From positions 1-24,597 of IMG/VR virus record IMGVR_UViG_3300037242_000012: a DNA stretch of 24,597 nt; one strand, 5' to 3'. This stretch comes from a virus. Shown piece after piece: positions 7,707-24,539 of this stretch (its first letter is position 1; each line of letters starts with the position of its first letter). The position numbers and the translations under genes are program-made. The notes below the pieces were generated by a model, which saw only the letters and a list, made by a program, of their open reading frames with translations, was not told the DNA's origin and did not search any database.

Positions 7707-7955
7707 TTGAGCACCGACAAGGCCGCGACCTCCCTGCAGATCTTTGAGGGCGGGCCGACCTACAAAGCCAACAAGAACGGCGTGGTGAACGTTGAGAACC
7801 CCACTCACGCCAAGATCCTGCGCCAGATGGGTGCGACACCGCACCTGTACGGGTCAACCCAGCCGGACACCGAGGTCTGCTCGTGTGGAGGCCGGAAGTT
7901 CCCGTTTCAACAGGTTTGCGGGGACTGCTACCGCAAGGAGGAAGCTAATGCCTAA
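7707..7955 (+). CDS. Small Cys4 zinc-ribbon protein, function unknown
   Basis: An 82-aa protein with a TTG start at 7707, the first possible start after the preceding TGA in this frame; the Shine-Dalgarno is weak. The N-terminal half contains a FEGGPTYKANKNGVVNVEN stretch and no recognisable domain. The C-terminus has C58-x-C60 and C71-x2-C74 flanked by basic residues, as in a small zinc ribbon. It lies in the head-completion region and its end overlaps the next gene by 8 bp. It could be a minor head protein or a regulator; the sequence does not decide. Confidence 0.7.
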   Translation: MSTDKAATSLQIFEGGPTYKANKNGVVNVENPTHAKILRQMGATPHLYGSTQPDTEVCSCGGRKFPFQQVCGDCYRKEEANA

Positions 7956-8217
7956 AGGCCAATACCAGCGACGCCCCGTAAACCCAACTCCCGTCGATCT
8001 CCCGGCTCCCGATCCCGCACCCGCCCAGGCTGCCGTGGAGCAGGCTGAAGTTGCCATAGCCGAGGCTGAGCAGAAGGTTGAGGAACTGAGCCTGGTGGAT
8101 GTGAACGACTGCCTCAAGGTTGGTGACTTCGTCGGCAAGGGCAACCGCCAGATCTCCAACACCTACGGCGAGTTCCTGGTTGATCCAGAGACGGGGAAAG
8201 TCACCAAGTGCCTGTAG
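7948..8217 (+). CDS. Small hypothetical head-region protein
   Basis: An 89-aa protein. The open frame begins earlier, at 7792, but ATG7948 is chosen because AAGGAGGA lies 5-6 bases upstream and the earlier part is an Arg/Thr-rich shadow of the preceding gene. The sequence has a basic Pro-rich start, a Glu/Ala-rich helix (about 30-48, EQAEVAIAEAEQKVEEL) and a compact C-terminal half with two cysteines (DCLKVGDFVG and VTKCL). No family is recognised. It overlaps its neighbours at both ends, as expected inside a phage operon. Confidence 0.7.
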   Translation: MPKGQYQRRPVNPTPVDLPAPDPAPAQAAVEQAEVAIAEAEQKVEELSLVDVNDCLKVGDFVGKGNRQISNTYGEFLVDPETGKVTKCL

Positions 8218-8381
8218 CCAAGAAGGATCAGGTCACGCCTGAAACCTTCGAGACGTGGGTGCGCGCCATCGTGGCGGACGAATTCGAGAAGCGCAAGAGC
8301 TTGCTCGAAGAGGCCGTGGCCAAGATGCTGGCTGAGCACGACGCCCAGGCACGGCAGAACGCCGTACTAGCGCGCATCTGA
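8208..8381 (+). CDS. Very small helical hypothetical protein (57 aa)
   Basis: A GTG at 8208 opens a 57-codon frame that ends with TGA at 8379-8381. The protein begins MPVAKKDQVTPETFETWV and continues as a charged amphipathic helix with many Glu, Lys and Ala. It overlaps the previous gene by 10 bp and shares one base with the ATG of the adaptor gene (TGATG). It fills what would otherwise be a 160 bp gap in a tightly packed operon, which is the main support for it. Function is unknown; many phages place a tiny helical protein just before the adaptor gene. Confidence 0.65.
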   Translation: MPVAKKDQVTPETFETWVRAIVADEFEKRKSLLEEAVAKMLAEHDAQARQNAVLARI

Positions 8382-9298
8382 TGACCGTCGCCCCCGCGAT
8401 CTCGCAGATTTCGCGCCCCGAGACCGCAGGGATTCCCTACCTCACCGCACAGGAGTTCACCAACGCGCCGACCGGGGTGCCGATCTCCAATCTATTGACG
8501 TCCGGAAACGCTACTCAGCAGATGGTTGCCCTGCAAGCCGTCATCCTCCGAGCGTCGTCTTGGATGGATGTGCAGTGCCACCAGGTCCTGGCAAGCACAA
8601 CGGATACCGAGATGGCTCGCGGACGGATGCGGCGGGACGGGTCGATCTACGTCTTCCCGCGGTGCTACCCGATCCGAGAAGTGATCTCCGTTGCGGTGAA
8701 CTACCAGCCCCTCAACTTCACCCCGCTGACCTCGCTTGCCAATGTGGTGCCGCTGAACCGGACCTTTGTGATCTACCAAGCCCCCTTCCCCTTTCAGTCC
8801 AACCAGGGACCGATCCAGTTCGGCCCGATAGGGAATTGGGAAGAGTGCTGGGTCCAGTACAGCTACGTTAACGGCTACCCCGTAACCACTTTGGCAGACG
8901 CTTGCGCTGCGGCCGCCGACTCCATCACCGTCGTCTCAAGCCTGGGGATGATCCCGGGAATGGTCCTGACCATTTCGGACAACCCGAACACGGAGACGGT
9001 CGGGGTGGAGTCTGTTTCGGGCAATGTGGTCACCCTGACCGGAACCACGCAGTACGCCCACGCAGAGGGGATCTACACGTCCTCTCTGCCCGAGGCAATC
9101 AAACAGGCGGCCATTCTCGCCACCTCCGGCTTCATCCGCTTGCGCGGATCGGGAGCGGTGACGATGGCTTCGATCGGCACACAGCCTAAGGACGTGGCCG
9201 GCGCCGACCCGGGCGGGTTGGAAGACCTGGCCAACGCCAGCCAGATTCTCCACGAAGGCGGCTTCGTAGCCCAGGTGTCGCTGCCGAGCCAACTGTGA
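8381..9298 (+). CDS. Head-tail connector / adaptor (gp6-like) with inserted beta domain
   Basis: A 305-aa protein at the position of the HK97 gp6/SPP1 gp15 adaptor that binds below the portal. The N-terminal third (YLTAQEF, LQAVILRASSWMDVQCHQVL) fits the helical adaptor core, and PRCYPIREVISVAVNYQPL leads into beta strands. The C-terminal helix LPEAIKQAAILATSGFIRLR completes the core. Between them, residues about 170-230 contain a Gly/Val/Thr-rich insert (SITVVSSLGMIPGMVLTI...) ending with YAHAEG, a beta-barrel-like insertion seen in many actinophage connectors. The usual adaptor is 100-200 aa, so the insert accounts for the extra length. ATG8381 overlaps the preceding stop by one base. Confidence 0.75.
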   Translation: MTVAPAISQISRPETAGIPYLTAQEFTNAPTGVPISNLLTSGNATQQMVALQAVILRASSWMDVQCHQVLASTTDTEMARGRMRRDGSIYVFPRCYPIREVISVAVNYQPLNFTPLTSLANVVPLNRTFVIYQAPFPFQSNQGPIQFGPIGNWEECWVQYSYVNGYPVTTLADACAAAADSITVVSSLGMIPGMVLTISDNPNTETVGVESVSGNVVTLTGTTQYAHAEGIYTSSLPEAIKQAAILATSGFIRLRGSGAVTMASIGTQPKDVAGADPGGLEDLANASQILHEGGFVAQVSLPSQL

Positions 9299-9807
9299 GC
9301 AGGCAGGGCGTCAGACAGGCCGTCGCGGCCTATGTCAACCCCAACTCCGTTCCCGGGCTGGCGACCATGTACACCGCCTTCCCCCGAGACATGCTCGGCG
9401 AGAACTTCACCAATACTCTGATACCCGGAACCATGACCGGTTGTTCGGCCTTTCCGTTCATCTCCACCTCTCACGACCAGAGGATCGGCTTCGGACTCAA
9501 GAAAGAGCAATACGAGGTCACGATCCAGTTCGCGTTCGCCTCCCAGCAGCCCGAGGGAACCGACGCGCAGGACGACGTCGACAACATCCTTGATGCAGTG
9601 GTTGCCTTGATCCGCGCCGATCCCACGCTGGGGACGGAAGGCAGCACCACTGATCCCATCTTCCAGGCGGGGGAAGGAGACCAGCTGGGGGCCGCAGACA
9701 TCGTGGTCCGCCAGGAGCTTCCGGTCGTGGTGCCCGATGGCGGAACGATCGTCATTTGGGCGACCGTCGAGTTGACCGTTCTCCAACTTCCCATCGTTGC
9801 CTACTAG
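9295..9807 (+). CDS. Neck protein, probable tail terminator
   Basis: A 170-aa protein starting at GTG9295, overlapping the adaptor stop by 4 bp. Its make-up fits small neck or tail-terminator proteins: an N-terminal helix (VRQAVAAYV), a long polar beta region, the helix DDVDNILDAVVALIRADP (about 91-108), and a C-terminal beta sheet (PDGGTIVIWATVELTVLQL). It lies between the adaptor and the tail tube gene, where the terminator ring protein is normally encoded. The role is assigned by synteny and general fold pattern, not by a signature motif. A stopper protein is the alternative. Confidence 0.6.
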   Translation: MSRQGVRQAVAAYVNPNSVPGLATMYTAFPRDMLGENFTNTLIPGTMTGCSAFPFISTSHDQRIGFGLKKEQYEVTIQFAFASQQPEGTDAQDDVDNILDAVVALIRADPTLGTEGSTTDPIFQAGEGDQLGAADIVVRQELPVVVPDGGTIVIWATVELTVLQLPIVAY

Positions 9808-9817
9808 GAGAGATTCC

Positions 9818-10039
9818 ATGACTTCCTACAAGTTCACGGGTGAGGTTGAGGAGATCTTCCCCTTCGGCCTGCTGAAACCCGGGCAGGAGATTGAACTCCC
9901 CCGAGCCGTCAACCATCCGCGCTTGGAGCGCGTCGACAACCCCAAGGACGCCAAGGCCAAGAGGGATGGCGACCACCAAACGTTCATCCCATCCAAATCA
10001 CCGCAGGCCCACGAAGCCGAATCTAAGGAGAGTGACTGA
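9818..10039 (+). CDS. Small hypothetical protein before the tail tube gene
   Basis: A 73-aa protein. ATG9818 is preceded by AGGAGAG at correct spacing; an upstream in-frame start at 9797 lies inside the previous gene and lacks such a site. The N-terminal half forms a plausible beta element (YKFTGEVEEIFPFGLLKPGQEIELP), followed by a highly charged, probably disordered C-terminus. No known family is recognised. It shares one base with the tail tube start. Similar short proteins in this position are common in actinophages, with unknown roles. Confidence 0.7.
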   Translation: MTSYKFTGEVEEIFPFGLLKPGQEIELPRAVNHPRLERVDNPKDAKAKRDGDHQTFIPSKSPQAHEAESKESD

Positions 10040-11025
10040 TGCCCACGTTCGCTACTGCTCTAGCTGCCCCAAAACGAACAGTGGGCATCGCCAAGGAGGC
10101 TACCAAGGGAACTTGGGTCACACCTTCGGCCACTATCGGGCTGGATACCTTCGATCCCGTCGACAACATCACCGAGCTCCCGGTGACCGGGATGCGTGGC
10201 TCGATGGGCACCGACTACGGCATGGTCCCTGGCATCGGTCATTCGGACATCTCGTGCGGTGGCCCGGTCTACCCGGACACTATTGGATGGTTCTTGGCTG
10301 GCGTGGGAGGGGACTTGGCAGTCACCGGGTCGGCTGCTCCCTACACCAACGTCATCTCGCTGCTCAACTCTGGGCAAGGCCAACCTTCGTCTCACTCGCT
10401 GACCGATGTGTACGGAGCCACCCAGGCGCGTGCATATACGGCCGTCCAGTGGAGCGAGGTGGCGCTTAACTTTGCCGCCCCGTCGTTGCTGAGCTTCACC
10501 GCCAAGGGGATGGGACTTCTCTCGACTCAAGAGACCGCGCCCACGCCGTCCTTTACAACCGTGATGCCCTTCCCTGTCTGGCAGTTTCAGGCGACGATCA
10601 ACTCCATCACCACTCTCTTCGTGACCAAGGCCACGGTGACTATTACCCGGAAATCCACAGTCATCCCCCAGCTGAACGCAACCCAGACCCCGGCCCAGCT
10701 CTTCCTCGGGCCGATCTCCTCGGTCGCTTGGAAGTTCACCGTCCTGGGGGACGCTTCGGACACTGCACTGGGTTACTACCTCAACGGCACCCAGATCCCG
10801 CTTGACCTTACGGCTTCCTATGGCACCAGCGGAGCCGCGGTGGAGTTGGACGTCCACTCGACAGACGTCGCCCTGACCTCGGCGCCGATCAAGACCGAGA
10901 ACGACTACATCACCTTCGACTGCTCAGGGACGGCGATTATGAACTCGACCGACGCGGGCACTTCGGGCGGGACGAGTCCTTTCAAGATTACCCTTAAGAA
11001 CGCGGTCGATGGGGCGTACGTATGA
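10039..11025 (+). CDS. Major tail (tube) protein
   Basis: A 328-aa protein that should polymerise into the tail tube. It opens with PKRTVGIAKEATKGTWVTPSA, the typical start of the actinophage tail tube family, and continues as a beta-rich chain without long helices. VTITRKSTVIP (about 198-208) and FLGPISSVAWKFTVLGD (about 223-239) fit the tube beta-sandwich. It lies immediately before the chaperone pair. ATG10039 overlaps the previous TGA by one base and is preceded by AAGGAGAG. The last 4 bases overlap the chaperone start. Confidence 0.85.
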   Translation: MPTFATALAAPKRTVGIAKEATKGTWVTPSATIGLDTFDPVDNITELPVTGMRGSMGTDYGMVPGIGHSDISCGGPVYPDTIGWFLAGVGGDLAVTGSAAPYTNVISLLNSGQGQPSSHSLTDVYGATQARAYTAVQWSEVALNFAAPSLLSFTAKGMGLLSTQETAPTPSFTTVMPFPVWQFQATINSITTLFVTKATVTITRKSTVIPQLNATQTPAQLFLGPISSVAWKFTVLGDASDTALGYYLNGTQIPLDLTASYGTSGAAVELDVHSTDVALTSAPIKTENDYITFDCSGTAIMNSTDAGTSGGTSPFKITLKNAVDGAYV

Positions 11026-11671: not shown

Positions 11672-12714
11672 CCGGTGAGGCCGACTTCACGTTCAGGGTG
11701 GACCCCAGTTCGGTCGATAAGTGCTCGTCGGCCCTGGATGATCTGAAGCAGCGGATGCACGTTGCCAACTCCCGCGCCACCGCGAGCGGGATCGCTGCGG
11801 TGCAAAGGCGATCCAAAGAAGCCGCTTCGGGCGCTCCTGGCCCGAAGGTAATCACGGGAAGGCTGAGGGACTCGATCTGGGTCGAGGGCCCTGAGCCGAG
11901 CGGCGACAGTCGGTTCTCGGCCAAGGTCGGGCCCACTGTGATCTACGGACGCATCCAAGAGTTGGGCGGAACCATCGTCCCCAAGACCAAGAAGACCCTC
12001 TTCTGGATAGGTGACGATGGGCAGCCGCATTTCGCCATGCGGGTCACGCTCCCTCCTCGTCCTTATATGCGCCCCGGGCTCAGCTCGGCCATGCCCGAGA
12101 TCCAAGACGCATACGCCAGCGAGTGGGGCAAAGCCACTTCCTCCGACTACCAGGAAGGCTTTGCGACTCCCTCCCCGCCGCCCCCTCCCGAGCCGCCATT
12201 CACGCACTCAGCCAAGTTCTTGGCCTACGAGGAGGCTCAGCTTCACGACGTGATGCGGGAGGGCCGCAGCTCCTACGAGGGCGAGGAATTCAAGCCCTAC
12301 GGCTCCAAGAATGTGGCCAGCGAACCCAGACCCGAGTCTGAGATGGAGGCGTGGCGGAAGCTCCAGCACAACCCCTCTCCCAAAGAGATGGCTGAGTCTC
12401 AAGAACGGTTCTCTCGCCTCGATCGCAAGCTAACTTCTCGTCCGGGAACGAGCCGTACTCCGCTCCGCAAGTTCCATGCCGAATCCGGGATGGAGTCCTG
12501 GGACGCTTACAACCAGGCTTTAGCGCGGTTCGCGAAACGGCACCCGAGCAGCGGTCTGATCAGTGCGCTGCGAGACGAGAGCCCCCGGGTGGTCCGCGCC
12601 CGCAAGGCTACTGAGAATGTGACCAAGCCGGTCAAGGCTGCTGCCAAGAAGGCTCATCACGGTAGTGGATTTACCAAGAAGGTGCGCGGGTTCGGGATTC
12701 GCCGAATCCTCTAG
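11668..12714 (+). CDS. HK97 gp10-like neck/tail component with long C-terminal extension
   Basis: A 348-aa protein with a TTG start at 11668. AAGGAG lies six bases upstream, and the start overlaps the stop of the frameshifted chaperone by 4 bp. Residues about 1-150 match the HK97 gp10 family: VQRRSKEAASGAPGPKVITG, LRDSIWVEG, YGRIQELGGTI and PRPYMRPGL near the domain end. That family is usually about 100-150 aa. The remaining 200 residues are basic and polar with a Pro-rich joint (PSPPPPPEPPF near 170) and no recognised fold. The usual place for gp10 is before the tube gene, so its position after the chaperones is unusual. The gene converges on an opposite-strand gene; both stop codons lie in one CTAG. 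Confidence 0.75.
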   Translation: MTGEADFTFRVDPSSVDKCSSALDDLKQRMHVANSRATASGIAAVQRRSKEAASGAPGPKVITGRLRDSIWVEGPEPSGDSRFSAKVGPTVIYGRIQELGGTIVPKTKKTLFWIGDDGQPHFAMRVTLPPRPYMRPGLSSAMPEIQDAYASEWGKATSSDYQEGFATPSPPPPPEPPFTHSAKFLAYEEAQLHDVMREGRSSYEGEEFKPYGSKNVASEPRPESEMEAWRKLQHNPSPKEMAESQERFSRLDRKLTSRPGTSRTPLRKFHAESGMESWDAYNQALARFAKRHPSSGLISALRDESPRVVRARKATENVTKPVKAAAKKAHHGSGFTKKVRGFGIRRIL

Positions 12715-12863
12715 CGGATCAGTAGGGCGATGGCGCCCAAGATGCCGACGCTGAGCGGTATCGAACACCCGAGACAGCCACAGGGCAAGTTGAGCCTTGC
12801 GGAAGGTCGGCGTCGGTAGCCCTTGCGGCGGTTCTGCCTCCTAGGCGGGTAAGGTCGGCCCAT
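12711..12863 (-). CDS. Small basic single-span membrane protein (50 aa)
   Basis: On the opposite strand, ATG at 12863 opens a 50-codon frame. The N-terminal half is strongly basic (RRQNRRKGYRRR), followed by a Cys motif CGCLGC and a hydrophobic helix (SIPLSVGILGAIALLI) that reaches the C-terminus. This layout suggests a small inner-membrane protein with its basic N-terminus in the cytoplasm. GAGGAG lies about 14 bases upstream, further than ideal, and the start overlaps the zinc-finger gene end by 23 bp, so translation may be coupled. Function is unknown; exclusion or lysis-timing roles are possible but unsupported. Confidence 0.5.
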   Translation of the reverse strand: MGRPYPPRRQNRRKGYRRRPSARLNLPCGCLGCSIPLSVGILGAIALLIR

Positions 12864-13056
12864 CCGCGAGAACGTTACTCCTCTTTTTGGCAGCGTAGGC
12901 TGCTCGGACCCGATGGGCGTCCGAACAGAACTTGGCCGAGTGCTTGCCCGGGACGAACCCGATCTCGCACACCGGACAGATCGTGAGCCCCTCCGGGTAG
13001 GCCAAGATCGGTTCGCCTCTGTTGCTAGGCGGCATGGGCGGGCGTCCAAGAGGCAT
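12841..13056 (-). CDS. Small zinc-finger protein (CxxC...CxxxH)
   Basis: A 71-aa protein on the opposite strand. The core CPVC (27-30), FVPGK and FCSDAHRVRAAYAAKKR (43-59) matches the widespread actinobacterial zinc-ribbon motif in which a CxxC knuckle is followed by a YCSDxCRxR-type second knuckle. Here the last ligand would be H48 rather than Cys. The basic tail after the finger is compatible with nucleic-acid binding. The start at 13056 gives a second in-frame ATG at residue 8 (13035); neither has a strong Shine-Dalgarno, so the exact start is uncertain. It overlaps both neighbouring opposite-strand genes. Confidence 0.6.
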   Translation of the reverse strand: MPLGRPPMPPSNRGEPILAYPEGLTICPVCEIGFVPGKHSAKFCSDAHRVRAAYAAKKRSNVLADGPTLPA

Positions 13057-13399
13057 CGCTCAGAGTATCGCCGCTCCAGTCCTGGTCTTCGCACCGCTCC
13101 TGGCGCCTAGCTTCGCGCCAGTCGTTGATCTCGCGGTGCAGCCCGGTCAGGAAGATCGATCCCATGCTACTTAGGCTCAAGACGACGACCGCGTAGCAGC
13201 AGAGATAGGCGATCTGCACCTTCCGGTCCCACATCGAGGCGATCCCGGTCGACCAGACCTGGGTCACGTCGTGGGCCAGGTAGAGGCAGCCTAGCGATCC
13301 GATAACGGCCGCGATCAGAGTCACGCCGAAGGCTAGGCCTAGGCCGGTGCGCTCCGTGCTCCACTCGATCAGGTTGGGCGCTGTCTTCCAAGTAGTCAT
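13025..13399 (-). CDS. Two-span membrane protein of unknown function
   Basis: A 124-aa protein, first gene of the opposite-strand cassette. ATG at 13399 is preceded by AAGGAG with about seven bases of spacing, the best ribosome site in the cassette. Two hydrophobic segments are visible, about 18-41 (LGLAFGVTLIAAVIGSLGCLYL) split here only by position, and about 62-87 (QIAYLCCYAVVVLSLSSMG). A charged cytoplasmic-type tail follows (HREINDWREARRQERCEDQD). The two-helix hairpin and charged tail are compatible with a holin or a superinfection-exclusion protein, but no family is recognised. Its orientation against the structural operon implies separate expression timing. Confidence 0.65.
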   Translation of the reverse strand: MTTWKTAPNLIEWSTERTGLGLAFGVTLIAAVIGSLGCLYLAHDVTQVWSTGIASMWDRKVQIAYLCCYAVVVLSLSSMGSIFLTGLHREINDWREARRQERCEDQDWSGDTLSDASWTPAHAA

Positions 13400-13418
13400 T
13401 ACGGTCTCCTTGCGAGCT

Positions 13419-13455
13419 ATTCCTTACGCCAAGAGTGCGCGTAACCCGTAGGAAT
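13419..13455. promoter_or_regulatory. Composite dyad in the divergent intergenic region (candidate operator)
   Basis: An inner stem pairs TTACGC (13424-13429) with GCGTAA (13439-13444) around a 9-base loop. It is flanked by ATTCC (13419-13423) and GGAAT (13451-13455) as an outer five-pair stem, with a six-base one-sided bulge. It lies between the divergent starts of the opposite-strand membrane gene and the tape measure gene, and would cover the expected -10 zone of the TTGACA promoter candidate. It could be a repressor site or an RNA structure. Confidence 0.4.
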
Positions 13456-13460
13456 GTCAA
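13455..13460 (-). promoter_or_regulatory. Candidate -35 box (TTGACA) for the opposite-strand cassette
   Basis: A perfect TTGACA reads on the opposite strand, about 56 bases ahead of the membrane protein ATG at 13399. No good -10 hexamer lies 16-18 bases downstream (the hexamer at a 17-base spacing is CACTCT), so this is only a candidate. The cassette does need its own promoter because it opposes the late operon. Confidence 0.35.
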
Positions 13461-13492
13461 GCGCCGTCAGTAAATCGTGACAGGAGGTGGGT

Positions 13493-15772
13493 ATGCCAGG
13501 CGAGTACCTCCCTCCTGTAGTCGCGAGCCTCACCGGGGACACGTCCGACTTTGATGAGGCGATCGACGACGCCAAGGAGAAGCTGGACAGCTTCAACGAG
13601 ACGGATGCCACGGCCACCCTCGATCTGGACGACGAGGAAGCCCAGGCCACCTACGACGAGATGTCGGCCCAACTGGACGACTGGGATGCCAAGCAAGAGA
13701 CCGCAACCCTCAGCGTCGATGACGAAGAGGCGATGGCCTCGATCTTGGAACTCGACGCCCAGGCCGACGAATGGGGCAAGAAGCGCGAGGACGCGTCGAT
13801 AGGCATCAGCGACACCAAGTGGGCCGAGGCGATGGCTCAGATGACAGCACTCACGGCCGAGATCGAGGTGCTTTCGGCGGCCTATGACGAACTAGCCGCG
13901 AGCGCTGACGCTGCCGCCAATGCCGAAGACTCGGGCGGTGGGGGCGGAATGGCCTTCGACCTGGGAGACGCCCTCGGCGCTCTCGGGTCATTTCTAACGG
14001 CCGGCCTATTGGGGGTAGCGATCGGAATCGCGCTAACGGGTCTTATCGCCATTGTCCAGGGCCTTTCGTTCGCCATCGGCGGCCTTGTGACCATGTTCTC
14101 CATCGCGCTTCCGGGAGCTCTTGCATTCGCCGCGATGGCCTTTGAGCCTCTGGAGAAGGTCATCACGGCGATCACGGCCGGAACCCAACTCACCGGCCCG
14201 TTGGGAACGCTGGAAACAGCAATCCTCGGGATCAAGAGTGCGTTCGACCAGATGGAGGCGCTGGCCCAACCAACGATCTTTGCCGCGCTCATCAATGTGG
14301 CTCAGCAGTTGGATCGGATTCTCCCCACACTCGCCCCACTGTTCACCACGGCAGCTGCCGGGTTTCAGGCATTTATGGACCCGATCCTTAAGTCGATGGA
14401 GAATAACAACTTCACCCAGTTCATAGGCTGGATGTCGAAAGAAGGGGTCCCTGTGGCGAGTGCCTTTGGCACCGCTGTCGCGAACATTGGGATCGCTTGG
14501 GCCAACTGGATGCAAGCCTTTGGCCCCGCGCTCCCGGTCCTTGAGGGTGGCCTGAAGACCGTAACCAAGGACTGGAAGAATTTTGCCGAATCCCTTCAGA
14601 AGTCGCCTGCGTGGAATGACAACTTCCTCAAGAACGGAGAGAAAGACTTAGCCCAAGTCGGGATCTTCTTCAAGAACCTCGGCAACGCCATAGGCCAGTT
14701 GTTCCTCTCGATCGGCCCAAATGGACCCGTGATCCTGAGCGACCTCAACCATGCGTTTGAGTCGATGGCCAAGATCCTGACCCCGCTTCTCGGTCCGTTG
14801 GCCCACCTGTTCGCCGGACTGGCCACCGACCTTGGGGATTTCTTGGTTGGGCTCTCGGGGGGTGGTCATACCACCACCAAGAACTTCGGGAAGCTCATCA
14901 CGCAGCTAGGGGACGACGCCAAGAAATCTGGGCCCGAGTTCAGGAAGCTGGGCGAGGACATCGGCGACATCCTGGGCCCGGTCAGCCAAGTCTTTGGCCC
15001 GCTGGCCACCCTTGTTGGGCTTATCAATAAGGCCGGACCGACCAAGCCCCTCTGGGACAACATCCTCCAGGGGCCGTTGGCCAACATCACCGCCGACTCA
15101 TCCAAGACACAACAGGGACTCCTGCAGTCGTGGGCTGCCACAGGCGCACAGTTTGAACACAACATCAACTCGTGGATGAAGTCTGTGGACAAGGATGTGG
15201 CGGGAGGCATGGCCACATTCGCCGACGAATTCACCAAGGTGTGGAGCAACGTCGGGACGGCGCTCAACAACTGGATGAAGGACTCGGTGGGGCCGTCCTT
15301 TCACGACTTGCCCGGAAACATCGTTCATGCGATGTCGGGCATGGCCGGAACGGTAGGGGGCTTCTTTGTAAGCGTCTGGGACAAGATCGAGAAAGACGTC
15401 ACCAGTTTCATAGCCACGATCGTCGGCTACTTCTCCAAACTCCCGGGCGACATAACAAAGGCTGTAGGAAACATCAGCATTGGCGGGATCAGTCTCGGCA
15501 GCCTTTCTCACCTCATCCCTGGACTCGCCTCGGGCGGCCCGGTTCTCGCCGGCGTCCCCTATATAGTCGGCGAGAACGGCCCGGAACTCCGAGTCTTCAG
15601 CTCCCCCGGAGCGATCGTTCCCAACGGCCAGTTCGGTCGGGGGATCACCTATTCCCCCAGCTACAACATCACCCTGCAAGGGACCGATCCTTCGCTCCTG
15701 GGTCAGGTCCGGGCGTTGCTGACTCAGCATGATGCCCAGTTGCAGCAGCAGTTACTGGCCTCCGGCTACTGA
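13493..15772 (+). CDS. Tape measure protein
   Basis: A 759-aa protein that sets tail length and is ejected with the DNA. ATG13493 is chosen over GTG13487 because AGGAGG at 13482-13487 then has proper spacing. The N-terminus has a GDTSDFDEAIDDAKEKLDSF start typical of actinophage tape measures and an acidic helical tandem repeat (about 35-110). Gly-rich residues about 143-152 lead into a hydrophobic block (about 153-220) with several membrane-spanning candidates. The C-terminus has ASGGPVLAGVPYIVGENGPE, a signature of phage tape measures. At roughly 0.15 nm per residue the tail would be about 110 nm, an estimate from family knowledge. Its stop shares one base with the next ATG. It is preceded by an opposite-strand cassette. 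Confidence 0.92.
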   Translation: MPGEYLPPVVASLTGDTSDFDEAIDDAKEKLDSFNETDATATLDLDDEEAQATYDEMSAQLDDWDAKQETATLSVDDEEAMASILELDAQADEWGKKREDASIGISDTKWAEAMAQMTALTAEIEVLSAAYDELAASADAAANAEDSGGGGGMAFDLGDALGALGSFLTAGLLGVAIGIALTGLIAIVQGLSFAIGGLVTMFSIALPGALAFAAMAFEPLEKVITAITAGTQLTGPLGTLETAILGIKSAFDQMEALAQPTIFAALINVAQQLDRILPTLAPLFTTAAAGFQAFMDPILKSMENNNFTQFIGWMSKEGVPVASAFGTAVANIGIAWANWMQAFGPALPVLEGGLKTVTKDWKNFAESLQKSPAWNDNFLKNGEKDLAQVGIFFKNLGNAIGQLFLSIGPNGPVILSDLNHAFESMAKILTPLLGPLAHLFAGLATDLGDFLVGLSGGGHTTTKNFGKLITQLGDDAKKSGPEFRKLGEDIGDILGPVSQVFGPLATLVGLINKAGPTKPLWDNILQGPLANITADSSKTQQGLLQSWAATGAQFEHNINSWMKSVDKDVAGGMATFADEFTKVWSNVGTALNNWMKDSVGPSFHDLPGNIVHAMSGMAGTVGGFFVSVWDKIEKDVTSFIATIVGYFSKLPGDITKAVGNISIGGISLGSLSHLIPGLASGGPVLAGVPYIVGENGPELRVFSSPGAIVPNGQFGRGITYSPSYNITLQGTDPSLLGQVRALLTQHDAQLQQQLLASGY

Positions 15773-17763
15773 TGGGGATCGGCTTTGTCGGGGCTGGGGC
15801 CTGCCTCAATCCGCTCTCTAGTGCTCCCCAAGCCCAGATGCCGACCGCTGCCGTGCCCGGCAATCTAGCGGTGGCGTGTGTAACCGATCCGGGTGACTGG
15901 ACCGCCACGGCCCCCTCTGGCTGGACGCTGATTGGCAATGATGGCGAGAACCAGACCTTGTTCTCCTACACCGTCCAGCCGGGCGACCCGGGGGCGACGT
16001 TCACATTCGGAGATAGCACCGGGAACGGCACCGCCGACATCGTCGTCTACTCGGGCGTTGCGGGCGTCGGGCCGCACGGCGGCGCGGCCAACTCCCTGGT
16101 AGCGCCCTCGGTGACTGCCCGCGAGTCGGGCGACTGGCTAATCGGTTTCTGGGCCACGATGGGCACTTCCGATCCCAGCACGTTCACCCTCACCGTGCCC
16201 GTGGCGATGACTGGCGACCTTGCAAGGGGCGGCTCCTTTAGCAGTTCCCACAATTGGTACGCAGCTCGCGCCGTCGGCCATCTCTTGCTGGGTTCGTCGG
16301 GCGCGACAGCCACGCAGACCGCGACGGGCGCTTGGAGCAGCGGCTCTGGGCAGTTCGAGGGTGCCCTGGCGCTTATCCTGTATGCCATCGCCCCGCCGCC
16401 GGCCCCGACCCTTCTATCGCCAGCCAACGGTGCTTACCTGGACCTCGCCGCGGGACAGACCTTCTCCTGGACCTACAACGGCGTAGGGACACCCCAGACC
16501 CAGTATTACTTCCAGCGGGTGCTCTCGGGGACCCAGTCGTGGTGGACGGGCTCCGCATTCACGGGGAGTTCGACAGCTGTCACCTCGTCCTCGACCTCGA
16601 TTGCCTTCGGCTCCACCACATGGACGGACGGGGACACCTACACCTGGCTCGTCAACACGGTCAACGCGGCCGGAGCCGGAACCTACTCGGCCCCGTTCAC
16701 GATCATCGCGGAGGCGGCTCCCACTCTCTCGGTGAGCGCGCCGACTGGAACCCAGACCACGTTGGGACCGACCGTTACTTGGTCGGCCACCTTCCCGACC
16801 ACAGCGCCGACGCAGGTTACCTACCGGATCTGCGTCTACTCCTCCGCGCAGTACGGCGCCGGTGGCTTCTCGCCCGGAGTTTCCGCAGCAACCTACGACT
16901 CGGGCAACGTCAATAGCACGGCGACCTCGGCCGTCAGCGGGCAGTTGACCGCAACCGGCACCTTCCGCGCCTATGTCCAAGTGACCGATGCGCATCAGGC
17001 GTCTGCCTGGGAATACTCCCAGTTCACCCAGAGCGTCACTGTCCCTTCGGCCCCCACGTTGACTGCGGCATGGCAGTCTGCCTCGGCCTCGGTTCTGCTC
17101 ACGGCTACCGGGAGCGGGACTTTCGACTCTCAACCGACCTATGCCAGTTTCTTCTACTCCGACAACGGAGGAACGACCTGGCAGTGGGTCAGGGGTGGAT
17201 CGGACGTCTCGCTCTCTACGGGCACAGCGACGCTAACCGATTACGAGATCCCGGCCAACGCCACCCGGGAGTACTACGCGGTGGTTTCCGCCCTGGTCTC
17301 GGGTGCCGTCTACACCTCCAACCCGTCGACAACGCAGAGCGCGACCTCAAGTCTCTCCAACTGGTGGCTCAAGAACCCACTCACTTCTGGCCAGAACATC
17401 ACGGTCGAGGTCTCGGCAGACTTCGCCACCGACCGGATAGAGCAGAGCACGGTCAACTACCTTTTGGGGCAGGACCTCCCGGTGGTGCTGTTCGACACGG
17501 TTGCGGGGACGGATGGGTCGATCACCGTCACCACGACCACCAGCGCGGCCTACACGGCCTTGGAGACGATCCTTGGCGCCCAGGCCGTCCTCCTCTTGCA
17601 GAGTCCATTTGGCGGCAACTGGTACATCCGGTTGGCGATCACCACGGCTTCGGCCAGCACGGCACAGGAGTCGGGAACCCTCTCGGCCAGCTCCGCTGCT
17701 TCGCCCTTTAGGGTCACGATCGTCTCGTACGTCAACGTGGCGATGCCCCCAATCACTTCCTGA
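15772..17763 (+). CDS. Multi-domain minor tail protein with Ig/FN3-like domains (distal tail candidate)
   Basis: A 663-aa protein directly after the tape measure gene, where the distal tail protein is usually encoded. Residues 1-200 form a Thr/Ser/Gly-rich beta domain (APSGWTLIGNDG, TADIVVYSGVAG). Then come FN3/Ig-like modules beginning PPAPTLLSPANG (about 205), APTLSVSAPTG (about 313) and SAPTLTAAW (about 425). The C-terminal 120 residues (WWLKNPLTSGQNITVEV, LPVVLFDTVAGTDGSITV) resemble the C-terminal part of minor tail proteins that attach to the tail tip. The modules suggest sugar or surface contact. Start and stop each share a base with neighbours (TGATG). The tail role is firm; the Dit assignment is by position. 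Confidence 0.75.
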   Translation: MGIGFVGAGACLNPLSSAPQAQMPTAAVPGNLAVACVTDPGDWTATAPSGWTLIGNDGENQTLFSYTVQPGDPGATFTFGDSTGNGTADIVVYSGVAGVGPHGGAANSLVAPSVTARESGDWLIGFWATMGTSDPSTFTLTVPVAMTGDLARGGSFSSSHNWYAARAVGHLLLGSSGATATQTATGAWSSGSGQFEGALALILYAIAPPPAPTLLSPANGAYLDLAAGQTFSWTYNGVGTPQTQYYFQRVLSGTQSWWTGSAFTGSSTAVTSSSTSIAFGSTTWTDGDTYTWLVNTVNAAGAGTYSAPFTIIAEAAPTLSVSAPTGTQTTLGPTVTWSATFPTTAPTQVTYRICVYSSAQYGAGGFSPGVSAATYDSGNVNSTATSAVSGQLTATGTFRAYVQVTDAHQASAWEYSQFTQSVTVPSAPTLTAAWQSASASVLLTATGSGTFDSQPTYASFFYSDNGGTTWQWVRGGSDVSLSTGTATLTDYEIPANATREYYAVVSALVSGAVYTSNPSTTQSATSSLSNWWLKNPLTSGQNITVEVSADFATDRIEQSTVNYLLGQDLPVVLFDTVAGTDGSITVTTTTSAAYTALETILGAQAVLLLQSPFGGNWYIRLAITTASASTAQESGTLSASSAASPFRVTIVSYVNVAMPPITS

Positions 17764-19958: not shown

Positions 19959-20381
19959 GTGCCCCTGACGAACTACGGCGACCAATCGCTCATCCAGAAT
20001 CTCTTCGGGAAGACGGTCTACACCTTCCCGAGCACGCTCTATGTGGCGCTCTCGACCACGACCCCCGCCCAACCGACAGGTTCGCTGAACTTCACCGAAC
20101 CTTCGGGTAACGGCTACGCCAGGGTCGCGGTGACCAACAACACGACCAACTGGGTCGAGGTCAGCTCCCCGCCCACAGACGGGTACGAGCAGGCCAATGG
20201 GACGGCGATCACCTTCCCCACTGCGACCGGATCGTGGGGGACCGTGACCTACTTCGGGGTCTACGACGCCGCCACCTCGGGCAACTGCATCGGGTTCGGA
20301 GCCCTGACCACCAGCCAGACGATCAGCCTGGGGGGAACACCCTCGTTCGCGATTCAGGCGATGACGATCCTGCTCTCGTGA
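19959..20381 (+). CDS. Phage tail protein, Gp80-type
   Basis: A 140-aa protein with a GTG start at 19959 and AGGAGA upstream. It carries the marks of a widespread tail protein family: LTNYGDQSLIQNLFGKTVYTFPSTLYVALSTT at the start (quoted here only as its two halves, NLFGKT and TLYVALSTT), YARVAVTNN in the middle, ITFPTATGSWGTVTYFGVYD, then GALTTSQTISLGGTPSFAI and a final beta strand. The fold is beta-rich. Members lie among tail tip genes; the precise function is unknown. It overlaps the next gene by 4 bp. Confidence 0.7.
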   Translation: MPLTNYGDQSLIQNLFGKTVYTFPSTLYVALSTTTPAQPTGSLNFTEPSGNGYARVAVTNNTTNWVEVSSPPTDGYEQANGTAITFPTATGSWGTVTYFGVYDAATSGNCIGFGALTTSQTISLGGTPSFAIQAMTILLS

Positions 20382-20545
20382 GCGAATTGGAAGGCGGCGA
20401 GCACACGCTACCCAAGGGCGCGATAGTCATCCCTGCCGACGATGAGCCGATCGTGCTGTCCGAAGGCGGCCGGCTGATCGTTCCCTTTGGGATCGCCCTT
20501 GAGGGGAAGCTTGTGGTGCAGTCTCGAACGAGCCAGAAAAACTGA
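20378..20545 (+). CDS. Tiny hypothetical tail-region protein (55 aa)
   Basis: GTG20378 overlaps the preceding TGA by 4 bp and opens a 55-codon frame ending at 20545. Much of the sequence alternates hydrophobic and charged residues (LPKGAIVIPADDEPIVLSEG, RLIVPFGIALEGKLVV), suggesting a small beta sandwich. Its stop shares a base with the ATG of the lyase gene. The tight overlaps at both ends are the main support that it is real. No family is recognised. Confidence 0.6.
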   Translation: MSELEGGEHTLPKGAIVIPADDEPIVLSEGGRLIVPFGIALEGKLVVQSRTSQKN

Positions 20546-21636
20546 TGAGGCTGAGACGCGCTGGAGCGCTGGTTGCGGGGATCGGGGCGATCCTCGCCAT
20601 CGCTTTCACCCTGCTCCCCGCCGCTGCCCACTCGGCCAAACTCACCGCACCCACCAACCTGCAAGGACAGGTCGGCCCTAGCTCGGTCAACCTGACTTGG
20701 AACGGGGTCGCGGGCGCCACCTCCTACCAAGTGGACCAGCGGGACACCCAGATCGACGTCACGTCGTCCACTGAGTACCCGGTCGCCCCGCTGAGTGCTG
20801 GGTGGTACACCTTCAAGGTCCGGGCCCAGGCGTCCGGGGAGCGCACGTCCTCTCCCGCCGTCATCACGGTTCATGTGGCCTCCGGAGGGCCAACCCCCAC
20901 ACCGACGTCGACGGGCACCCCAACTCCAACTCCCGCTCCCACAGGGACGCCGGGCACTTGCTCGCCGGGCACTTTCCCCACGTCCTACTTCTCGCCGGAC
21001 TTCGAGGGGCCGATCTCGCGCACCTTCTCGGAGCAGTTCATCACCGACTCGGGGAGCTACATCACCACCTGCTACCCGGCGGGTTCGAGCGCACCTTCGA
21101 GCGGACACCCGGGCGGGGCGCAGGCTCTCCTGCCGATCACGGCTGGGTCTGCGGATTCCTACACCCTCACCTACGACCTGCGGTTCCCGGTCGGGTTCGA
21201 GTTCGTCAAGGGTGGGAAGCTGCCCGGATTGTGCGGCGGCCAGTGCTGGACTGGGAGCAACAACGGAGCGGGTGGATGGTCTGCTCGGTTCATGTGGCGC
21301 ACCAGCGGGCAGGCGGAAGTCCTCCTGTCCGATGCCACCACGACCGGCTACGGCACGGACCTTGGGTTGGGAAGTTGGGATTGGCTGGCAGACGGGCAGT
21401 TCCACACACTGACCGAGCAGGTCACCATGAACACTCCGGGGCAGCCTAACGGCGAGATCACCGTCACCTACAACGGGGTGCAGGTCAACCAGTTCACCGG
21501 CCTGACTTTGTCTGCCTCGGGGGACACCGAGGAGATCGACTCACTCATGTTCACGACCTTCTACGGTGGGCATGACAGCTCTTGGGCACCGAATAGCGTC
21601 CAGCACATCGACTTCCGCAACTTCGCCGTAGGGTAA
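20545..21636 (+). CDS. Secreted FN3 plus polysaccharide lyase family 14-like enzyme
   Basis: A 363-aa protein with the layout of a secreted bacterial carbohydrate enzyme. Residues 1-31 form a signal peptide: MRLRR, a hydrophobic core to about 25, then AHSA with probable cleavage before K32. Residues about 35-113 form an FN3 domain (APTNLQGQVGPSSVNLTW, SYQVDQRD, WYTFKVRAQ). A Pro/Thr linker covers about 115-137. Residues about 145-363 match the PL14-type lyase fold (jelly roll): YDLRFPVGFEFVKGGKLPGL (about 210-229), WSARFMWRTSG (245-255), NTPGQPNGEITV and FTTFYGGHDSSWAP. This fold cleaves uronic-acid polysaccharides in known members. Catalytic residues cannot be assigned with certainty here. 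It may degrade capsule or slime on or around the host. ATG20545 shares a base with the previous stop. Confidence 0.85.
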   Translation: MRLRRAGALVAGIGAILAIAFTLLPAAAHSAKLTAPTNLQGQVGPSSVNLTWNGVAGATSYQVDQRDTQIDVTSSTEYPVAPLSAGWYTFKVRAQASGERTSSPAVITVHVASGGPTPTPTSTGTPTPTPAPTGTPGTCSPGTFPTSYFSPDFEGPISRTFSEQFITDSGSYITTCYPAGSSAPSSGHPGGAQALLPITAGSADSYTLTYDLRFPVGFEFVKGGKLPGLCGGQCWTGSNNGAGGWSARFMWRTSGQAEVLLSDATTTGYGTDLGLGSWDWLADGQFHTLTEQVTMNTPGQPNGEITVTYNGVQVNQFTGLTLSASGDTEEIDSLMFTTFYGGHDSSWAPNSVQHIDFRNFAVG

Positions 21637-21640
21637 CCTC

Positions 21641-23677
21641 GTGGCCTACACGGTCACGATCACTTATACGTCGCCGACCACGGCGAACTCGGTGCTGCGC
21701 TTCTATGAGGTAGACCCCACCGGGACGGTGATCCAGGACCTCTACGCCTTGGGGTCGGGGCTGGCCGCCACCGCGACGATCTCCCCGTCGACTCCGGCAT
21801 CCACGAGCCTCCTGGTCATCGAGATCGGGATGAACGACGGCACCGCTCCTGGGGCGACGATCTCGGGAGTCTCGGACGGCACGAACACATGGTCGCAGGC
21901 CGCGATCTCGCAGAACTCCGCCCGCAAATCGTCCGACGCCCAGTGGTACTCCTACCAGGGCAACACCGGAGCGGTGGACAAGGCGGTTGGTGCAGCCCCG
22001 GCCTCTACGACTGCTCCCTCGTCCGGCGCCACTGGCACCACCACCAATGCGACCGACTTTGTGCTCGGTGGTCATGCCTACGCCGGGTCCAGCTCGGTCA
22101 CCGACACCATCACGGCCGGTGGGTGGACGGTAGAGACGCAGCGCACCTCGACCGGCTCGGACACGATCAACAACGTCTCGGGCTACCAGGTCACCTCTTC
22201 CACGGGTAGTTTCACGTTCGCAGGCACTCTGTCGGCGACAGAGCAGTGGGCGGCCACCTGCGTCGCCTACGAGCTGCCGTCGGGGGGTGGGGCGCCGGTT
22301 GCCCTCGCCGGCCAGATCGCCTCGTCCTCCACCCTCAGCGCTACCGCACTCGACGGCGAAGCGCTGCACGGACAGATAGCCTCCGCCTCAACGCTCTCTG
22401 CCGTCCTCTCGGTGGCGGTCCCGCTGTCGGGTCAGATCAGCTCGGCATCAAGCCTCAGCGCGACTCCCAGCGTCGCCGTGGGGGTGGCCGGGCAACTCTC
22501 GTCCGTCTCGGCTTTGTCCGGCGACCTTCTTGAGTACGTCCCGCTCGCTGGGGCCATCGCGTCTGCCTCAACGCTTGGCGCCACGCCTTCCGTCGCCGTT
22601 GGGTTGGCGGGTCAGGTCGGGTCGACAGCGACCCTCTCCGGGACGCTCGGTCAGGCGGTCGCACTCGGCGGCCAGATCGCTTCTTCCTCGGTCCTGTCCG
22701 CGACCGTGCTGGATGGCGAGGCCCTCCACGGACAGATAGCCTCAGCGTCGACCTTTGCAGGATCGCTCAGCGTGGCCGTCGGCCTGAAGGGCCAGATAGC
22801 CTCAGCGACCACTCTCTCTGCGGCGCTGGCCATCCCTCTCTCGGGTCAGATCAGCTCAACCTCGACGCTTTCCGGCGATCCGTCAGTAGCCGTAGCTCTT
22901 TCTGGACAGGTCACCGCTAGCTCGGTCCTCTCGGGCCAGCTGCTAGGCAGCGCCGCTCTCGCGGGAGAGATCGGCTCCGCGTCCACCTTGACCGGGGCGC
23001 TCTCGCAAGCCCAGGCACTTTCGGGTCAGATCGGCTCCGTCTCGACCTTGGGCGCATCCCTCTTGGACGCCGACGCCCTGCACGGGCAGATCACATCCGG
23101 CTCGACCCTGTCCGGCTCGCTCGCGGTCACCACTCCTGTCCCGCTGTCGGGTCAGATCGCATCTGCCTCCACACTGAGCGCCAAGCCCTCGGTGAAGGTG
23201 GCACTGGTCGGCCAGGTCGCCTCGGCTTCCACGCTCTCGGGCACCGCTCAGACCGCCATCCCGCTCGCTGGCCAGATGGCCTCCACGTCGTCTCTGTCGG
23301 GCAAGCTGGGAGTCCTGATCGCGCTCTCGGGGAGCGTCCAGAGTTCGTCCAGCCTCGCGGGAAGTGCGCTGCTAGCCATCGCCCTCTCCGGGCAGCTCGC
23401 AAGTTCATCCGGTCTATCGGGTGATCTGGGTATCTGGGTCGCGCTTGCGGGCGAGATCAGTTCTCAGTCGGCGCTTGCGGGTGATCTCCAGGTTCGCCTC
23501 TCGGCCACGATCTTCCTCTACTTCAACGTCTTCGCCTGGGATGGGCATCTGGGCGCGGCAAGTTTCGACGGAACTGTCTCCGCAGAGGCGAGCGACGGGA
23601 ATCTCAGCGCCGAGTCCTGGAACGGCGAAGCGGACGCGAACGCCTGGGATGGCCAAATCACAGCCAAGCTGATCTAA
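21641..23677 (+). CDS. Repeat-rich tail fibre / tail-associated protein (20 x 20-residue repeats)
   Basis: A 678-aa protein beginning at GTG21641, four bases after the lyase stop; the ribosome site is weak. Residues 1-220 form a Ser/Thr/Gly-rich beta domain (SLLVIEIGMNDG, DFVLGGHAYAGSS, WTVETQRTS). Residues 221-620 are twenty repeats averaging exactly 20 residues, consensus [AP]LSGQIASASTLSGxLSVAV. Residues about 630-678 contain a second, shorter repeat of about ten residues (AWDGHLGAAS, FDGTVSAEA, SDGNLSAES, WNGEADANA). The regular pattern suggests a stacked beta structure such as a solenoid or fibre shaft. Proteins with this type of repeat are found in the tail regions of many uncultured siphoviruses. 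A role in surface display or receptor binding is inferred from position, not proven. Confidence 0.8.
   Translation: MAYTVTITYTSPTTANSVLRFYEVDPTGTVIQDLYALGSGLAATATISPSTPASTSLLVIEIGMNDGTAPGATISGVSDGTNTWSQAAISQNSARKSSDAQWYSYQGNTGAVDKAVGAAPASTTAPSSGATGTTTNATDFVLGGHAYAGSSSVTDTITAGGWTVETQRTSTGSDTINNVSGYQVTSSTGSFTFAGTLSATEQWAATCVAYELPSGGGAPVALAGQIASSSTLSATALDGEALHGQIASASTLSAVLSVAVPLSGQISSASSLSATPSVAVGVAGQLSSVSALSGDLLEYVPLAGAIASASTLGATPSVAVGLAGQVGSTATLSGTLGQAVALGGQIASSSVLSATVLDGEALHGQIASASTFAGSLSVAVGLKGQIASATTLSAALAIPLSGQISSTSTLSGDPSVAVALSGQVTASSVLSGQLLGSAALAGEIGSASTLTGALSQAQALSGQIGSVSTLGASLLDADALHGQITSGSTLSGSLAVTTPVPLSGQIASASTLSAKPSVKVALVGQVASASTLSGTAQTAIPLAGQMASTSSLSGKLGVLIALSGSVQSSSSLAGSALLAIALSGQLASSSGLSGDLGIWVALAGEISSQSALAGDLQVRLSATIFLYFNVFAWDGHLGAASFDGTVSAEASDGNLSAESWNGEADANAWDGQITAKLI
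22301..23500 (+). repeat. In-frame 60-bp tandem repeat array with nested 6-unit duplication
   Basis: Twenty degenerate copies of a 60-bp coding unit span exactly 1,200 bp. Individual units are 54-66 bp. The pair marked by DGEALHGQIASAST recurs at about 22352, 22712 and (as DADALHGQITSGST) 23066, that is every six units, which implies an older duplication of a six-unit block. Confidence 0.85.
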
Positions 23678-23727: not shown

Positions 23728-24108
23728 ATGGCAGATGAACCAGTCCACGGCAACGGGGACCGGACGGCCAAGGACTACCTGGCCAGCATCGAGAAGAAGG
23801 CGGACACCGCTCAACGCTCGGTAGACGACCTCTACAACCGCCTGTTCGGACTTCCCAAAGACCCCAGCGACACGGGAGCTCTGGGAGCGATCCGCGAGGA
23901 CATCCGCCTGTCGTTTCGCAGGCACAACACCGACGACGACGCTCGTTGGGCAAGACACGATCAAGAGCAGACCAGGCGCGACACGGAAGATTCCGCAAGG
24001 GAAGACAAGGACGTTGAGGGCAGACGTTGGCGCCGCACCTTCCTTGTCGCATTGGGCGGCGTCTTGGTCGCTTTCGCCACTGTCATCGTCCTGGTGGTGC
24101 TGAGATGA
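23728..24108 (+). CDS. C-terminally anchored membrane protein (lysis-region candidate)
   Basis: A 126-aa protein starting at ATG23728. Residues 1-100 are highly charged and helical (YLASIEKKADTAQRSVDDLYNRLFGL, then an Arg/Asp-rich segment). Residues about 103-125 form a single membrane helix (FLVALGGVLVAFATVIVLVVL) ending in Arg. A long cytoplasmic helical part with a C-terminal anchor is seen in some phage holin-like or membrane-complex proteins. No direct Shine-Dalgarno is visible; a 15-codon frame (23691-23738) with GGAG ahead of it overlaps the start and could provide coupling. It overlaps the next gene by 4 bp. The holin call is positional inference only. Confidence 0.7.
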   Translation: MADEPVHGNGDRTAKDYLASIEKKADTAQRSVDDLYNRLFGLPKDPSDTGALGAIREDIRLSFRRHNTDDDARWARHDQEQTRRDTEDSAREDKDVEGRRWRRTFLVALGGVLVAFATVIVLVVLR

Positions 24109-24539
24109 CAAAACGCAAAGACACCCTGCTGATGGGCGTGCTCGGCCTCCTTGCGTTGGCAGTCGTTCTGGTCGGCTGGGCGGCAATCTCCTTTCATAAC
24201 CAGAGCAACGCCCTACAGAAGGCCGAGAACAAGGTAGTGGCCGCAAACCACCAGGGATCGCTGCGAGACCACGAGTCCTTGCGCCATCTCCAGAGCCGGG
24301 TGAACTTCCTCGACCACGCGCTGGACTTGGTTTGCAAGGAAGCTGCGCTCCCGTGTCCCCCACCCTTCCCGAATGTCAAGCCGATACCCAAGCCGACGGG
24401 CGGCACGTCCGGGTCGGCCACAGCGGTGCCCACGCCCAGTGAGAGCCGCGCCAGTCCTTCGGGTGAGCCAACGGCCACGCCGAGCCCTTCCCCCACGCCA
24501 ACCCCAGTCCTCTGTATCGGGAGTTTCTGCATTGGATGA
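24105..24539 (+). CDS. N-terminally anchored membrane protein with coiled coil and Pro/Thr/Ser linker
   Basis: A 144-aa protein starting at ATG24105, overlapping the previous stop by 4 bp; the longer open frame to the left is a shadow of the previous gene. After MTKRKD comes a single membrane helix (about 8-29), a short helical segment (about 34-75) with two Cys (77 and 84), then a Pro/Thr/Ser linker (about 95-135) and a C-terminal CIGSFCIG with two Cys (137, 142). The layout puts the linker and Cys pairs outside the membrane. This is spanin-like in general shape, or a second holin/envelope factor, but no family is recognised. Confidence 0.7.
   Translation: MTKRKDTLLMGVLGLLALAVVLVGWAAISFHNQSNALQKAENKVVAANHQGSLRDHESLRHLQSRVNFLDHALDLVCKEAALPCPPPFPNVKPIPKPTGGTSGSATAVPTPSESRASPSGEPTATPSPSPTPTPVLCIGSFCIG

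Follow-up and report, generated by a model that had tools for sequence, protein, structure and literature searches.

Why would a tailed phage carry, among its tail-fibre genes, a protein that begins like an exported enzyme, and is such a protein still able to cleave polysaccharide? The question arises towards the 3' end of a 24,597-nucleotide stretch of viral DNA (hereafter the window), a 24.6-kb piece of a virus record with a siphovirus-type late module. An earlier note described a gene of the tail cassette as encoding a secreted-type FN3- and PL14-like lyase, and proposed that the infected cell exports it to strip polysaccharide, a public-goods weapon rather than a virion part.

The late operon and its phage

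The late module is ordered terminase, portal, protease, capsid, tail genes and tape measure, followed by the fibre genes. The reading frame in question (20545..21636, + strand) is real and whole, as had been described: it starts with ATG, encodes 363 amino acids, lies between fibre genes, and its PL14-fold product is recognized by the profile PF21294, by structure modeling and by Foldseek. Upstream, and sharing its operon, is a gp80-type fibre gene (19959..20381, +; PF23140, E = 1.4e-33). A 55-amino-acid ORF read from the sequence (20378..20545, +) overlaps the two genes that it separates, by 4 bp and 1 bp respectively. The PL14-fold gene can be placed in the late operon because its ATG overlaps the stop of this ORF (TGATG) and because the next gene starts 4 bases past its own stop. 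That next gene (21641..23677, +) is repetitive and fibre-like, with many LxGQIxSxSxLSG-type repeats; profile searches gave it no family match and a scan of viral contigs gave it no relative.

Further downstream, a small protein with a C-terminal membrane segment (23728..24108, +) is putatively holin-like. It is followed by a protein with an N-terminal membrane segment, a Pro/Ser/Thr-rich tail and a C-terminal CIGSFCIG (24105..24539, +), whose resemblance to a spanin is very weak. The two may form a lysis or membrane module. Ahead of the tape measure gene, a 772-base stretch (12714-13487) carries minus-strand ORFs, one of 71 aa at 12841-13056 that is zinc-ribbon-like (CPVC/CSDAH) and one of 124 aa at 13025-13399 with two apparent membrane segments.

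Phages of Rhodococcus, Streptomyces and Brevibacterium encode relatives of the tail protein at 17763, and for this reason an actinobacterial host is suggested. Judging from the tail-gene matches and the PL14 tree, the phage is probably actinobacterial and its host is likely a member of the Actinomycetota. The closest phage contigs, found by their terminases (84%, 85% and 69% identity), are syntenic with the window up to about the gene at 15772 and stop before the PL14 cassette. Contig scans for relatives of the neighbouring genes at 17763, 15772 and 21641 returned none, and the PL14-fold protein had no match in a collection of 50,697 phage records. Single-sequence scans (P0001) of viral and genome contigs likewise gave zero matches, and relatives were fetched only with alignments. 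Among named phages, no consistent case was found of a secreted enzyme carried as cargo beside gp80.

Domain architecture and the N-terminus

In a hydropathy and charge scan of the window genes, the N-terminus of the PL14-fold protein (MRLRRAGALVAGIGAILAIAFTLLPAAA) has an n-region of charge +3, a strongly hydrophobic core and the sequence LLPAAA/HS. It is the most hydrophobic N-terminus in the window apart from that of the membrane protein at 24105, and in the same scan the remaining tail genes showed no Sec-type signal. A translation start that skips this segment was considered and rejected, as no ATG, GTG or TTG follows the signal before the next domain begins. With a positive n-region, a hydrophobic core and an A-x-A motif all at the true start, residues 1-28 (20545..20628, +) read as a Sec-type signal peptide with probable cleavage after residue 28 (AAA/HSAK). 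The earlier proposal of a Sec-type signal cut at AHSA is therefore kept for the signal and revised for the site, since AHSA places a His at -3 and AAA/HS better fits the A-x-A rule. The signal-type N-terminus supports an export architecture as had been suggested, and from it we infer that the protein is Sec-exported.

Residues 32-112 (20638..20880, +) form an FN3/Ig-like region with weak profile matches (FN3con, E = 0.0086; Ig_J, E = 0.0036; PHROG J-fibre, E = 3.5e-6) and low-confidence structure models. The Pfam matches of this region all fall below the cut-off, and no FN3 family exceeds it in this protein; the similarity to FN3/Ig domains noted earlier holds in this weak form, and the FN3 label itself is unproven. 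The Pro/Thr-rich linker (residues 115-140; 20887..20964, +) is directly visible in the translation. Residues 169-360 (21049..21624, +) form a PL14 beta-jelly-roll domain. They score 153 bits with PF21294, whose cut-off is 27 (E = 1.2e-44), and across most of the domain the pLDDT of the AF2 model is >90. The leading Foldseek matches (E 3e-15 to 2e-11) are 5GMT (PL14; E = 3.3e-15, TM(target) 0.71), Aly36B (PL36; E = 8e-13) and vAL-1 (PL14), and the fold is a beta-jelly-roll of the 5GMT/3GNE kind. The PL14-type fold recognized earlier is thus borne out by both profile and structure, and sequence and fold both place the protein in PL14.

Loss of the catalytic tyrosine pair

If the PL14 domain were an intact lyase, its catalytic residues would be expected at fixed motif positions. 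K197, S219, R221, Y233 and Y235 of vAL-1, which we take to be active-site residues, share these positions with K143, R169, Y185 and Y187 of Aly36B (PDB chain numbering), and the equivalents in the window protein are K225, S246, R248, L260 and S262. The active-site Lys225 (21217..21219, +; vAL-1 K197, Aly36B K143) and the conserved SxR motif, Ser246-Ala-Arg248 (21280..21288, +; vAL-1 S219/R221), are kept. The catalytic Tyr-x-Tyr (vAL-1 Y233/Y235, Aly36B Y185/Y187) is replaced by Leu260-Leu-Ser262 (21322..21330, +). The protein also retains the GGKLPGL and GG-W motifs and most structural and cleft residues, and two further residues that are usually conserved are altered, R323 to S and D352 to V. 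Measured against PL14, the profile, the fold and the Lys/Ser/Arg residues are found and the Tyr-x-Tyr is absent; measured against the PL36 active site, Lys and Arg are present and both Tyr are absent.

The Ser at position 262 occurs only in the window protein. Of 98 other PL14 sequences in the alignment, 96 have Tyr here, one has His and one is truncated; at the position of Leu260, 81 have Tyr and 15, all Fibrobacter-type, have Leu. The active-site Lys and Arg are each found in 97 of the 98. The scan patterns by which these relatives were fetched included the Lys and Arg motifs and did not include the Tyr pair. Conservation of the Tyr pair is therefore not a selection effect, and that of Lys and Arg is partly one. 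Sequencing error was rejected as the source of the loss: the changes from Tyr to Leu (CTC) and from Tyr to Ser (TCC) require at least three base changes, the flanking residues differ as well, and there is no frameshift. An alignment slip was also rejected, as the nearest relative aligns without gaps (VLLSDATTTGYG versus VYAYFADTTGYG).

PL14 enzymes act by Tyr/Tyr beta-elimination (PMC8618178), which should not operate here because the Tyr-x-Tyr is Leu-x-Ser. In the PL36 enzyme Aly36B the catalytic center consists of Lys143, Arg169, Tyr185 and Tyr187, and Lys143 serves as both base and acid (PMC8286568). As Aly36B works via a Lys that is kept in the window protein, some catalysis is still conceivable. 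The protein could then be an active exported depolymerase that uses Lys225, as PL36 does, to cleave host or neighbour polysaccharide, and it would act as a free enzyme, linked to lysis or serving as a public good. This is unlikely in our judgment, although the retained Lys225, Ser246, Arg248, GGKLPGL and GG-W agree with it, as do two precedents: vAL-1, a PL14 of a chlorovirus, is left unpackaged in the lysate (PMC9614988), and soluble phage depolymerases freed at lysis without assembly into virions are known (PMC5380687). The Y-x-Y is present even in PL36, where Tyr185 is thought to help proton transfer (PMC8286568); other PL14 sequences almost always have Tyr where this protein has Ser262, and the changes at 323 and 352 add to the departure. 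The name "PL14 lyase" is unwarranted, because the catalytic Tyr pair was looked for and is absent. Loss of the active residues had been named beforehand in the earlier note as evidence against its own proposal, and this has come about in part, with the Tyr pair gone and Lys, Ser and Arg remaining. The notion of an active lyase weapon is weakened accordingly; a role in binding or altered chemistry is more likely than a depolymerizing "public-goods weapon", which the evidence does not establish.

Viral and cellular PL14 proteins and a proposed role

PL14 proteins have been reported from molluscs, bacteria and algal viruses. We found eight PL14 proteins on seven further viral contigs (L095, L096, L106-L110), none with a strongly hydrophobic N-terminus and all with the Y-x-Y kept. 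The window protein is the reverse, with the signal present and the Y-x-Y lost. The PL14s of L095, L106, L107, L109 and L110 resemble it in having the PL14 domain on a viral contig, but differ in lacking a signal peptide, in carrying other extra modules and in keeping the Y-x-Y. The contrast strengthens the earlier view that the protein is something other than a usual tail depolymerase. In four of the seven contigs a tail-fibre, sheath, baseplate or capsid gene lies near the PL14 gene (tail genes in L109 and L110, a capsid gene in L107, a fibre gene in L106). L110 encodes two PL14 proteins side by side (7951-10116), both with a Pro-rich N-terminus, next to a baseplate wedge gene.

Virions often contain Ig-like modules, and such neighbourhoods, together with the position of the window gene between fibre genes of a late operon, could mean that the protein is a virion component, a fibre-tip glycan-binding or depolymerase domain whose N-terminal segment is uncleaved or a mere anchor. 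A PL14 protein of the chlorovirus PBCV-1, A561L, is indeed packaged (PMC9614988). We nevertheless consider assembly into the virion unlikely, as the strongly hydrophobic N-terminus has no counterpart in the eight viral PL14 proteins, resembles a Sec signal complete with A-x-A site, and in this respect stands alone among the tail genes of the window.

Known systems offer partial parallels. Chlorovirus vAL-1/A215L shares a virus-encoded PL14 fold and an N-terminal Pro-rich stretch, but belongs to an algal virus, is an active lyase with Y233/Y235, is expressed early and lies in no bacterial phage operon. Aly36B is similar in fold and in its Lys/Arg positions, and differs in retaining Y185/Y187 and in giving Lys143 the roles of both acid and base. 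Soluble phage EPS depolymerases are like the window protein in its proposed action outside the virion, but the described ones are active enzymes and are released by lysis, not by a Sec signal. No description of a Sec-tagged phage PL14 was found in a literature search of incomplete coverage.

Cellular PL14s look mostly exported, many of them as lipoproteins; by a rough threshold, 58 of the 86 proteins have hydrophobic or lipobox N-termini. The nearest relative of the window protein (L074; about 47% identity, the best among bacteria) pairs with it in the tree at 99% SH-aLRT. Its genome was submitted as Melainabacteria, but is counted here as Actinomycetota because its phylum grouping equals that of Pseudonocardia. 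The exported PL14s of Actinomycetota (L074; Pseudonocardia L016, L018 and L023; L116) are about 41-47% identical to the window protein within the domain, L074 being the sister sequence, and likewise have a signal or lipoprotein N-terminus, a low-complexity linker and a PL14 domain; they differ in being cellular genes with the Y-x-Y intact, L074 within an alginate-like synthesis locus. There (L074:1-7119), the PL14 gene neighbours GT2, two beta-helix proteins, a UDPG/GDP-mannose dehydrogenase and a mannose-6-P isomerase, and the locus looks like one for alginate-type synthesis with PL14 in the place of AlgL. This resemblance suggests an anionic polyuronate as the ligand of the window protein.

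Recent transfer from a host, which the earlier note had raised, is not borne out, given this best bacterial identity and a GC content and third-position GC like those of the neighbouring phage genes. A capture might have left a decaying passenger, a host exoenzyme that lost its active site and now has no function. The missing Tyr pair, the other altered residues and a long branch (0.92) are compatible with decay, which we still hold to be very unlikely in view of the intact ORF, the overlapping neighbours in the operon, the phage-like codon-position GC, the retention of most structural and cleft residues and the high confidence (>90) of the PL14 model.

To our minds, there is about an even chance that the gene encodes a captured PL14 of actinobacterial type that is exported, has lost the Tyr/Tyr chemistry, and is mainly a binder of anionic extracellular polysaccharide or an atypical lyase. 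A tailed phage would have captured a secreted PL14-fold protein and would express it late, together with its tail-fibre genes, and Sec export followed by cleavage would take the protein out of the infected cell. The cleft, with Lys225, Ser246 and Arg248, would hold an alginate- or polyglucuronate-like extracellular polysaccharide, to which the N-terminal Ig-like module perhaps adds. The protein would be mainly a binder (a pseudo-lyase), at most an unusual PL36-like Lys-dependent lyase, and its benefit would presumably fall at phage release or spread. An export-tagged, Tyr-less PL14 in an actinobacteriophage tail operon would represent a phage protein working outside both cell and virion, and whether the pseudo-lyase grips, masks or performs unusual chemistry could be addressed with one purified protein. 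It is quite improbable that the exported retired lyase is a glycan-binding decoy. Such a decoy would coat anionic surface polysaccharide on the infected cell and on neighbouring cells, and would thereby mask a phage receptor (superinfection exclusion) or stop progeny from adhering to debris; a lyase would then have been converted into a secreted pseudo-enzyme.

Further observations concern other genomes. In Modestobacter (L050), GT2 and beta-helix genes are found in common with the L074 locus, and in nine Halomonadaceae loci (among L035-L070) the PL14 gene lies <6 kb from a UDPG/GDP-mannose dehydrogenase gene, suggesting that PL14 is a partner of polysaccharide synthesis in Halomonadaceae too. 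In a genome grouped with the Actinomycetota (L113), a PL14 domain ends a long repetitive fibre-like protein, possibly of a prophage.
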